Positions 39,319 to 43,523 of a stretch of DNA of 64,000 bases are shown here, in pieces. The notes under the pieces were generated by a model. It worked only from the letters and a program-made list of their open reading frames with translations. It searched no databases and was not told the DNA's origin. The stretch is from Alphaproteobacteria bacterium. GTDB lineage: Bacteria > Pseudomonadota > Alphaproteobacteria > Thalassobaculales > Thalassobaculaceae. Numbering within the stretch: the stretch's first letter is position 1; each line of letters starts with the position of its first letter. The stretch lies in the NCBI GenBank assembly GCA_024742275.1, contig JANSYS010000003.1:124001-188000 (forward strand), in the 5' to 3' direction. The translations under genes and the position numbers were made by a program.

Positions 39319-39431
39319 GGCACGCGATCCCGGACGATTGCCGACGGTGCCTCCCACCGCTCAGAGCAACCATCGCCTGCAGATCGCCCGCGCGCCAGCC
39401 CTGAGTCGGCCGGAGATGTCGGCAACCCGGA

Positions 39432-39506
39432 CGTCGGGATCGGGAGCGTCGGGATCGGGAGCGTCGGGATCGGGCGCGTCGGGATCGGGCGCGTCGGGAT
39501 CGGGCG
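39432..39506. repeat. 15-bp minisatellite, five tandem copies
   Basis: Five nearly identical 15-bp units CGTCGGGATCGGGAG/CG run from 39432 to 39506, then a decayed sixth copy. They fall in the 220-bp gap between the GNAT start and the HtrA-like stop. Neither gene reads through them, and any coding effect would need loss of the HtrA-like stop. In open frames the repeat would give Gly-Ala-Ser or Pro-Asp-Ala runs, so it can look like a gene. Confidence 0.8.
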
Positions 39507-39538
39507 CGTCGGGGGGTCCGGCGTCGGGAGAGCCGCCC

Positions 39539-40495: not shown

Positions 40496-40670
40496 GGCGC
40501 TCCTCCTCTTTCTGCAGGCAAAGAGGGTAGACTACTGGCGCGGTCCGTCCAGTCAGCGCGTGTCGATTTGTAAGAAGCTTGATATCGTGTTGATTCAGAA
40601 CCGTTCCGTATTGACCTCGGCGCAAGGCGTCCGGTCCTGAGCGGGCGGGGAACGCGCGCGGGAGACTGTG

Positions 40671-41084
40671 ATGGCACGCGGACAGGATTACGTGAAGACG
40701 AAGGCGCTCGAAGCGGTCGAAGCGGCCGACGGCAACCGGCACGAGGCGGCGCTGCTGCTCCGCGTCTGGGCCGATGCGGACGACAAGCTGTACCGCGCCT
40801 TGACCGCACCGCTGATGGCGAACCTCACGGCGCTCGCCGTTCAGCGGGCCACTGGAGCGTCCGATGGCCGCCGGATCGGCGGAAGCGGAGCGAAGAAGAA
40901 GGGTGGCAAGGGCGGCAAGCAGCAGATCGCCGAGGCGGATCTGCTCGCCGCCATCGGCTCGCGAACCGGCCAAACCATGTCGAGCTATCGTCAGTCGGCA
41001 GCGCCGCCGGCCCAGGGCAGCGCCCGCCACAAGCAGGCGGTTACGCTTCTGGCATCTGCCTATCGCAGAAAGCCGTCCAGCTAG
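40671..41084 (+). CDS. Uncharacterised small basic protein
   Basis: The 137-residue protein has an N-terminal helical segment (YVKTKALEAVEAADGNRHEAALLLRVWADADDKLYRALTAPLMANLTALAVQRA) seen in other alphaproteobacterial hypothetical proteins. A Gly/Lys-rich linker (GAKKKGGKGGK) and a shorter helical end follow. The NRHEAALLLRVWA pattern recalls short DNA- or ligand-binding helix motifs, but no function can be assigned. The start is ATG with GGGAGAC upstream; a GTG directly precedes it. It is convergent with the next gene, 25 bp away. Confidence 0.6.
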   Translation: MARGQDYVKTKALEAVEAADGNRHEAALLLRVWADADDKLYRALTAPLMANLTALAVQRATGASDGRRIGGSGAKKKGGKGGKQQIAEADLLAAIGSRTGQTMSSYRQSAAPPAQGSARHKQAVTLLASAYRRKPSS

Positions 41085-41109: not shown

Positions 41110-41751
41110 TCAGACCGGTCGCGCCTTCACCATGTTCTCGTAGAGATTGGCAATATAAGTAGGATCGGCGCCGATCTGCTGATTGGTGCGCGACCGGTGC
41201 TCCGCGGTCTCGGCCACGCCCGCGCTGATCATGTTGGGCGCCGCCTCGTCCGGGCAGATCGCGAGGCCGGTCTTCTCCAGGCTCGCCATGATTTCCTGGC
41301 TATGCTTACGGAAGCGCTGGAACGACGAATCGAACTTACCGGAGTCCTTCTTGCCGGGGCTCGACGCGCGAGACAGAGCCATGGAGAAGATGTCCAGGAC
41401 GAGATTGGCGTTCCGCGTCTCGATCCATTCCGTAACCATCGCCCCCCAGACCGCACTCACATAGGTCCTGGACGCCGACGACATCATGCCTTTGGACAGG
41501 GTCTGATCGGCGGCCTGTACCATCGCGTCTGTCGGCGACCGCGGAACCATCACGAAACCCGCGAGCGTCAGCGACTCGACCACTTCTTCGGCGTCCTTGC
41601 GGTAGTTCTCCCACTCGTTCTCGATCAGGAACGAGCCGAGGAAATCCACCTCGTTGTTCTGTACATTATTGAGAAAACGCGCGAATTCCTTCGCGAAGTA
41701 CTCAACGACGGACGGCTGCTGATTTACCTGTGACGCATTCCTGCCACGCAT
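41110..41751 (-). CDS. Uncharacterised protein with two VPR-PT type repeats
   Basis: The 213-residue protein is not recognised. It holds two copies of a short motif: AGFVMVPRSPTDAMVQAA at about residues 64-81 and TGLAICPDEAAPNMISAG at about residues 161-178. Motifs of the form G-[hydrophobic]-x-x-P-x-x-P-T-x-x-M are common in small phage proteins and in poorly characterised bacterial ones. The rest is mainly helical and charged. Codon use is slightly less GC-biased than the genome average, and the gene is preceded by a 300-bp AT-rich gap. It may have been acquired with phage-derived DNA. Confidence 0.6.
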   Translation of the reverse strand: MRGRNASQVNQQPSVVEYFAKEFARFLNNVQNNEVDFLGSFLIENEWENYRKDAEEVVESLTLAGFVMVPRSPTDAMVQAADQTLSKGMMSSASRTYVSAVWGAMVTEWIETRNANLVLDIFSMALSRASSPGKKDSGKFDSSFQRFRKHSQEIMASLEKTGLAICPDEAAPNMISAGVAETAEHRSRTNQQIGADPTYIANLYENMVKARPV

Positions 41752-42049: not shown

Positions 42050-42418
42050 TTACCGGGTGATTCGGGGTTTCAGGAAGCGAGGCGGCGCCGGAATGACGAC
42101 ACGGTCCTGGGTCTCGCGCAAATCCTGCCAGTCGCGCGCCGTGTCGCGGACATTCTCGCGAACCGGGGTCCGCCGCTGCTCCACCGTCTGGGCCCGATAC
42201 CGTCGCGCCCGATGGTCGGCGCTGTCGCCGATGCTGGACCGCTGCCACGGGGGAAGGGCGTCGAACGCTGCCGAGGCTGTCCGCAGATCGGCGCTACGCC
42301 CGGACCGAAACGCCCGATTGACTTCACGCGCCACGATGCTTCCCGCGCCAAGTTCGGCGTTCACCACCTCCGAGAGCACGCCCAATGCGCGACGATCCTG
42401 CGGGTCGATCTCAGACAT
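42050..42418 (-). CDS. Uncharacterised Arg-rich protein
   Basis: The 122-residue protein has an N-terminal segment (EIDPQDRRALGVLSEVVNAELGAGSIVAREVNRAFRSGRSADLRTASAAFDALP) with good coding character, then an Arg/Gln-rich tail (RAQTVEQRRTPVRENVRDTARDW). No family is recognised. The ATG at 42418 has GTGAGAA upstream. It follows the HPt-like gene on the same strand after 119 bp, so it may be linked to that pair. Its reality rests on codon use and on the conserved-looking N-terminus. Confidence 0.5.
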   Translation of the reverse strand: MSEIDPQDRRALGVLSEVVNAELGAGSIVAREVNRAFRSGRSADLRTASAAFDALPPWQRSSIGDSADHRARRYRAQTVEQRRTPVRENVRDTARDWQDLRETQDRVVIPAPPRFLKPRITR

Positions 42419-42537
42419 CCGTTTCTCACCCAGACATCCCACCAAAGCCGGTCCGGACCGAGCCCGCCGGCAGGGAAAGACTATTCCAACCGGCGCGAAG
42501 AGTCAGCCGTCAAGGCGTCGCGGGCCGGACTCCGCGG

Positions 42538-43032
42538 TCAACTGTCCTTGAATTTCGTCCGGACCGCCGAGAAAGCCTTCAGGACCGCCGCCTCGGTCGG
42601 GCCGCCCCGACCGGTTATGCGGTTGGCAAGCACCACATAAAGCGCGTCGATATGCAGATCGATAACATCGGATCGGCGCCGGTCGAGTCTGGTCAAGCCG
42701 GCCGCGAAATCGTTGAGAGACTTGCCGATGGCGGTCAACAGGTCGTAGCCGATGGTGCCGCCCGCGCCTTTGATGTCGAGCGAATTCGAGTAGATCAGCG
42801 CCAGCGCCTGCCTCTCCTGCTCCGGCCCCTCGCCGGCCTCGCGCAGTGCTTTCCGCATGGCGACCAGCCGGTCGGCGATATCTGCGGTAAAGGTGTCGCG
42901 TGCCTTATGAACGACCTGCTCGAGCTTCTGCACCATCGCCGGTGAAAGCTTGAGGTCGAATCCCTTGGAATGGTTGACCGCCTTGCGCCGGAGATCCGGG
43001 CGCGGAGGGATGATCTGGGCCCTTCGCGCCAT
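42538..43032 (-). CDS. HPt-like protein without the phospho-histidine
   Basis: The 164-residue, mostly helical protein has LDIKGAGGTIGYDLLTAIGKSLNDF at about residues 85-109. This is the histidine-phosphotransfer motif (H-x-[IL]-K-G followed by a Gly-rich turn), but the histidine position is Leu85. Related alphaproteobacterial proteins keep the His. Lys and Gly of the motif are present, so the fold is likely intact but phosphotransfer is unlikely. Its ATG overlaps the receiver stop by ATGA, so the two are translated together. It may act as a docking protein. Confidence 0.72.
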   Translation of the reverse strand: MARRAQIIPPRPDLRRKAVNHSKGFDLKLSPAMVQKLEQVVHKARDTFTADIADRLVAMRKALREAGEGPEQERQALALIYSNSLDIKGAGGTIGYDLLTAIGKSLNDFAAGLTRLDRRRSDVIDLHIDALYVVLANRITGRGGPTEAAVLKAFSAVRTKFKDS

Positions 43033-43523
43033 CAGTCGATGTGCCGCCGGTCGGGGCCGTCGTATTCAACCTGCCGGCGCCGACGGTCCGGACCGAAATA
43101 GCCTTCGGCATTGACGAACGCCCGGGGCCGGGCGATCACCGCGACGAGACGCCGGTAGAGGCCCTCGACGTTGAAGGGCTTGGCCAGGAACTCGGTTACG
43201 CCGCGATCCCGCGCCCGCATGACGTATTCCTCCTCGGAATTCGCCGTCAGCATGATGATCGGGGTCATGCGATCCGGTGAATCGCTGGCGGTGCGGACCC
43301 AGTCGATCAGATCGATCCCGTCCTCCGGGTCCATGTAGTACTCGGTGATGATGATATCCACAGGCTCGCCGCGCAGCACGTTGCGGGCGCGCTCCACAGA
43401 TGTGACGCTGCGGACGCGCGTCACTTCGAGCATCGCCAGGATGTCTCGGATCAACTGGGTCGACAGTTTGTTCTGATCGACGATCAGGAAACTCACCTTA
43501 GAGAAGTCGATTTTTTCGGGCAT
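43032..43523 (-). CDS. Response-regulator receiver protein with Asp-to-Glu at the phosphorylation site
   Basis: The 163-residue protein is a single receiver domain with a C-terminal YFGPDRRRRQVEYDGPDRR tail, a layout shared by a set of alphaproteobacterial receivers whose partner is an HPt-like protein. The acidic pair reads VDQN (one Asp lost) and the phosphorylation site reads IITEYYMDPEDG, with Glu61 in place of Asp. Thr (IMLTAN) and Lys (FLAKPF) are kept. Glu can mimic phospho-Asp, so it may be locked on. The ATG at 43523 begins the domain. No kinase gene is nearby. Confidence 0.85.
   Translation of the reverse strand: MPEKIDFSKVSFLIVDQNKLSTQLIRDILAMLEVTRVRSVTSVERARNVLRGEPVDIIITEYYMDPEDGIDLIDWVRTASDSPDRMTPIIMLTANSEEEYVMRARDRGVTEFLAKPFNVEGLYRRLVAVIARPRAFVNAEGYFGPDRRRRQVEYDGPDRRHID

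Follow-up and report, generated by a model that had tools for sequence, protein, structure and literature searches.

In the stretch of alphaproteobacterial DNA analysed here (the window, 64 kb in full), a receiver and an HPt-like protein encoded next to each other both lack the residue that would normally carry the phosphate. Because both sites are missing here and in close relatives, the pair probably works by binding partners and not by passing phosphate. Our preferred explanation, which we consider probable, is that the pair is an old paralogue of an Asp/His receiver-HPt pair and has been maintained as a phosphorylation-free module that would act through protein binding. It is very likely that phosphotransfer has been lost in this pair. 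The features concerned are the following.

43032..43523, minus strand: pseudo-receiver of 163 aa with a C-terminal FGPDRRRR...GPDRR tail (translation, PF00072 match and orthologue alignment)
43341..43343, minus strand: codon of Glu61, the phospho-Asp position of the receiver (translation; Glu in 36 of 36 members of the clade)
42538..43032, minus strand: pseudo-HPt of 164 aa, a CheA-P1-like helical bundle preceded by an N-terminal extension of some 30 residues (translation, profile and predicted fold)
42778..42780, minus strand: codon of Leu85, the phospho-His position of the HPt (translation; His in none of 36)
43030..43034, minus strand: TGATG, in which the receiver stop and the HPt start share one base (read from the sequence)

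The PF00072 profile recognises the receiver at 71.7 bits (curated cut-off 30.2). Translation agrees with what the earlier note had read in this protein: Glu61 stands at the phospho-Asp position, in IITEYYMDPEDG, one metal acid is gone (in the motif FLIVDQN, DD1 is present and DD2 is Gln), and the switch residues Thr93 (in MLTAN) and Lys115 (in AKPF) are retained. With Glu61 and the Gln at DD2, the full receiver acid set of phospho-Asp and both metal acids is absent, and the protein is a pseudo-receiver as the term is used in the 2025 review PMC12632262, namely, a receiver by profile without the residues for phosphotransfer chemistry. The two genes were described earlier as overlapping by ATGA. 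This was an error, as the stop TGA and the start ATG have only a single A in common. Three of the 73 related pairs analysed below (L029, L033, and L036) have the receiver and the HPt within one reading frame, which is a hint of joint action.

The HPt-like protein has Leu85 in NSLDIKGAGGT at the phospho-His position, and translation thereby confirmed the earlier reading of LDIKG without the H of H-x-I-K-G. The PF01627 profile scores only 15.7 bits against this protein, under the curated cut-off of 24.6. In the PDB, a profile built from 16 orthologues picks out CheA HPt chains at E values of 2.1e-4 to 1.5e-3, and in that alignment the Leu85 column falls on the CheA phospho-His; the same profile matches the repeat protein BRIC1 (6ff6) at 2e-10. 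The predicted fold superimposes on CheA P1 (1i5n) over 122 residues at 2.7 A (Z 15.4), and its other matches include BRIC1 6ff6 (Z 15.0) and designed four-helix bundles (best Z 13.2); Foldseek alone gave an E value of 0.075 with probability 1.00. The mean pLDDT of the model, whose underlying alignment includes one His-bearing row (L128), is 79, with residues 1 to 10 and 12 to 27 below 50. Judged by profile and predicted fold, the HPt-like protein is a relative of HPt domains. CheA P1 is its closest natural match in both solved fold and sequence profile, but CheA P1 belongs to a kinase and carries the phospho-His, whereas the window HPt is a separate protein without that His.

Among 61 related genomes, 28 have an HPt match and 16 a close orthologue; an order-wide search of 36 genomes found a match in 19. 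All 16 orthologous pairs of the order combine Glu61 in the receiver with an HPt lacking the His (14 Leu and 2 Arg), which indicates that the double change is more than chance. The pair also occurs in named records, among them Thalassobaculum litoreum, T. fulvum, Nisaea, and Ferrovibrio; this named set comprises 18 loci (L111 to L128), one of which (L128) is an Asn/His pair. The HPt profile matched 128 of 385 genomes of the class. In the 20 class genomes with matches of at least 95 bits, those HPts all read as non-His, and below 95 bits the pairs, as far as the weak matches were read, were mostly Asp/His, with exceptions. A phylum-wide draw of 299 genomes gave three with a match of at least 95 bits, all Alphaproteobacteria. 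At least eight GTDB families, as well as the named Ferrovibrio records, contained Glu pairs.

Trees were built, with the trait columns left out, from 73 non-redundant adjacent receiver-HPt pairs of Alphaproteobacteria. These were kept from 145 HPt hits after removal of 50 duplicates (including 14 of the 18 named loci L111 to L128), 1 gappy sequence, and 21 hits without a same-strand receiver within 250 bases (16 without the His and 5 with it). Many His-less HPts without a receiver within 250 bases occur in Ferrovibrio-type genomes (L130, L131, L134 to L138, and L140; nine were read). In the tree set, 36 pairs have a Glu receiver, and their HPts carry Leu (25), Phe (7), Arg (2), Tyr (1), or Ile (1) and never His; the other 37 are Asp/His (28), Asn/His (4), Asp/Arg (3), Asp/Leu (1), and Asp/Met (1). 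Loci were picked by likeness to the window HPt, so the split of 36 to 37 does not reflect how often each type occurs in nature. The 36 Glu receivers form a single clade (100/99), each of 200 bootstrap trees having a single change, and their HPt partners likewise form a single clade (100/99). The co-occurrence of Glu61 and the missing His within a clade, which the earlier note had proposed to look for, is therefore found in 36 of 36 pairs and on both trees. The single clade of Glu receivers indicates that the Asp/Glu difference arose in one event, with the His absent on the same side of the branch. The trees are unrooted, and we infer the direction as loss of Asp and His rather than gain. Both trees place the double change at one event, which leaves only two independent contrasts and makes a statistical test of co-loss uninformative. 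His versus not-His requires four changes on either tree, with single losses on other branches. Relatives lacking one site were seen among Asp receivers at L025, L036, L101, and L142 and among Asn receivers at L031, L105, L106, and L107. Such branches (four Asn/His pairs and five Asp receivers with Arg, Leu, or Met in the HPt) indicate that one site can be lost without the other.

All 16 genomes of the order in which the Glu pair was found also have an Asp/His paralogue (L037, L038, L039, L055, L075, L076, L077, L079, L080, L082, and L083 and the Nisaea-type L187 to L191). The paralogue in the window's own genome (L039:9661-10726) has the same gene order, the FGPDRR C-terminal tail, and homologous proteins on both sides, but unlike the Glu pair it retains both acids as well as the Asp and the His. 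In NCBIfam its receiver had no match over the cut-off among the matches listed and its HPt had no match. No kinase was seen next to the Asp/His pairs at L039 and L055 that might provide input; the neighbours are, by eye, purE/purK-like and transporter-like. The dN/dS values from five sequence pairs each (Nei-Gojobori) are 0.08 to 0.27 for the receiver and 0.10 to 0.31 for the HPt. The joint absence in the clade, the low dN/dS, and the retained paralogue together point to an old, maintained, non-phosphorylatable pair and not to decay. The conversion away from a phosphorelay step, which had been put forward in the earlier note, is thus well supported by the sequences, through the clade-wide joint absence of both sites and purifying selection.

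The receiver has kept much of its switch. Glu61, Gly69, Thr/Ser93, Ala94, Phe112, and Lys115 are invariant in the 36 members of the clade, and both Y-T coupling positions (Thr/Ser and an aromatic residue at K-3) are retained in 36 of 36, compared with 47% of pseudo-receivers according to section 7 of PMC12632262. DD1 is always acidic (32 Asp and 4 Glu), and DD2 takes ten residue types, with Asp in 1 of 36. Retention of the switch positions throughout indicates that these parts are under selection, although the known phosphorylation chemistry is impossible. It was suggested in the earlier note that the Glu may lock the receiver in an active state, and on this point the sequences give mixed support. 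The conservation of Glu61, Thr/Ser93, Phe112, and Lys115 while DD2 varies freely would fit a receiver held on. Against this, K+2 is Phe or Tyr in all 36 Glu receivers and Val or Ile in 26 of 28 Asp/His relatives, and according to section 18 of PMC12632262, Phe at K+2 pushes CheY towards inactive forms and the Glu hypothesis has been disproved for some pseudo-receivers.

The phosphorylation-free binding module may be pictured as follows. An ancestor with Asp and His would have given rise to a pair in which the HPt still uses the former phosphotransfer face to dock on the receiver, with a hydrophobic contact of Leu or Phe at position 85 and Met, Ala, or Leu at position 90 of the HPt replacing the His and Gln. 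A standing receiver-HPt complex would result, and its amount, not phosphorylation, would carry the signal; likely output contacts are the FGPDRRRR tail of the receiver, the N-terminal extension of the HPt, and the co-conserved neighbour p213 described below. HPt position 90 is Met, Ala, or Leu in all 36 Glu pairs and Gln, Gly, or Glu in all 28 Asp/His pairs, and the polar phosphosite may thus have turned into a hydrophobic contact patch at positions 85 and 90; the Arg at position 85 in 2 of 36 pairs speaks against such a contact. Lys88 of the HPt is retained in 36 of 36. In known complexes, the beta1-alpha1 and beta5-alpha5 face of the receiver serves HPt docking. Of the 20 positions at which the Glu receivers depart most strongly from the Asp/His group, seven lie there, 17, 20, 22, and 27 on the beta1-alpha1 side and 117, 119, and 120 on beta5-alpha5; this grouping was made post hoc, and the top two positions, 131 and 100, are off this face.

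Two other readings overlap with that of a binding module. As a decoy or competitor, the pair might have no output of its own and instead dampen or tune the relay of the Asp/His paralogue by binding to that paralogue's kinase, HPt, or receiver. The paralogue's presence in every order genome with the Glu pair would suit such a role, but a mimic is expected to keep its docking side, and in both proteins the docking-side positions differ from those of the Asp/His pairs. The Glu pair also has its own neighbour genes, and we regard this reading as rather unlikely. Alternatively, the two proteins may be separate effectors that have only an operon in common, each with a partner of its own (p213 for the HPt, for example). 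Sixteen of the 21 receiver-less HPt hits lack the His (two of them, L099 and L100, lie at contig ends), which suggests that the receiver is maybe not the sole partner. In three of these loci (L131, L140, and L136, in genomes G237, G328, and G405, respectively) a weak, one-repeat p213-like ORF lies directly downstream of the His-less HPt. On the other hand, 36 non-redundant His-less HPts adjoin a Glu receiver and three relatives have a receiver-HPt fusion, and we consider separate effectors unlikely.

Three uncharacterised proteins near the pair bear on these readings.

42050..42445, minus strand: ORF of 131 aa; the protein probably has 122 aa and starts at the ATG at 42418, where the alignment with relatives begins; found close to the pair in 15 of 19 loci
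41110..41751, minus strand: p213, 213 aa, strongly conserved, containing two stretches of some 65 residues each that resemble one another (G[FY].[IV]VP..PT..M, by eye)
40668..41084, plus strand: protein of 138 aa, convergent to p213, in the same 15 of 19 loci

All three accompany the pair in these 15 loci. They are missing at L122, L125, L126, and L127, and L122 stops 365 bases beyond its HPt match, too early for a judgement. Further gene groups (clusters 3, 5, and 12) are common to 12 to 15 of the same loci, so part of the neighbourhood is ordinary synteny. None of the three proteins had a match over the cut-off in Pfam or NCBIfam. Twelve of the 385 class genomes have a strong p213 match (E value of 1.3e-45 or lower); ten of these matches are near full length, one is in two pieces (G307), and one covers the second half only (G383). 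All 12 genomes are among the 20 with a His-less HPt (Fisher p 7e-18, with kinship ignored), and by GTDB family strong matches occur in 5 of 10 families with a His-less HPt and in none without. p213 lies on the HPt contig within about 2 kb in families f1, f97, and f135 and on a different contig in G091, G156, G212, G307, and G383, a separation that may partly come from assembly; in G091, p213 and the HPt are each at least 70 kb from one contig start, and linkage there is unlikely. Weak matches (E values of 1.8e-6 to 9.9e-4) were seen in 11 more genomes. In PHROGs, p213 matches phrog_5913 (7.1e-7) and phrog_12449 (2.8e-5), phage families of unknown function, and its one-repeat relatives matched no Pfam family over the cut-off. 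The predicted structure of p213 is uneven (mean pLDDT of the five models, 36 to 75) and gave a best Foldseek E value of 0.12. With this uneven model, RyR repeat domains (Repeat12-like) took ranks 1 to 11 of a fold search, at Z scores of just 5.4 to 7.7 and an rmsd of about 4 to 5 A; no RyR family was among the Pfam matches listed for ten members at E values up to 1. A wider proposal is that a phosphorelay step was converted once, in one lineage, into a permanent heterocomplex of Glu receiver and His-less HPt (through the old phosphotransfer face) which together with p213 would be an undescribed alphaproteobacterial module. We put this forward only tentatively, as the linkage of p213 is partly general synteny and two of its 12 matches are partial or split.

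Phosphotransfer could also proceed through other residues, such as Thr60 or another residue in the receiver and His127 or His42 in the HPt. Thr60 is present in 34 of 36 receivers of the clade and H127 in 29 of 36 HPts. However, H127 is as common elsewhere (33 of the 37 other pairs), which makes it an old family feature, and 7 of 36 Glu pairs have Gln or Ala in its place; H42 is found in 18 of 36 Glu pairs, and the metal ligand DD2 is almost never Asp. We therefore hold this route to be very unlikely. All columns of both alignments were scanned for a replacement His or Asp; H127 and H42 failed, and the other conserved His in the HPt that the earlier note had named as evidence against its reading does not exist as a universal column. 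Finally, a functionless, decaying duplicate, which the missing phosphorylation residues alone might suggest, is hardly credible given the dN/dS of 0.08 to 0.31, the spread over eight GTDB families and the Ferrovibrio records, and the conserved neighbourhood.

Pseudo-receivers and pseudo-HPts are already known singly. Plant pseudo-HPts of the AHP6 type lack the His and are thought to compete for partners; they are eukaryotic, and we know of none with an adjoining Glu receiver in one operon. Bacterial pseudo-receivers (PMC12632262; FrzS, PMC1974792) resemble the window receiver in lacking the phospho-Asp, for which Glu is the commonest replacement according to PMC12632262. They differ in that the HPt partner here is also siteless and in the complete retention of the Y-T coupling positions. 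Section 6 of the same paper gives 2.0% for receivers without the Asp and 0.9% for Hpt domains without the His, and its abstract describes how bacterial pseudo-receivers are turned on and off as still a mystery. In the open-licence literature, we found no paper on a matched, conserved pair of pseudo-receiver and pseudo-HPt. Two paralogous pairs, with and without phosphate chemistry, in the same cell, as in the window's order, provide a clean natural experiment on what the receiver-HPt contact does alone, and p213 is a candidate for the third part of the module.

Some minor observations were made along the way. No tRNAs were found within the 64-kb window. Two single-contig genomes of about 1.5 Mb (G001 and G005), whose genus also contains genomes of about 5 Mb, have no HPt match and are possibly reduced relatives. 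A 15-base tandem repeat occupies window positions 39427 to 39529 (5.5 copies, 98% match at 39432 to 39513) and sits just before the end (39539) of a protease/PDZ-like ORF.
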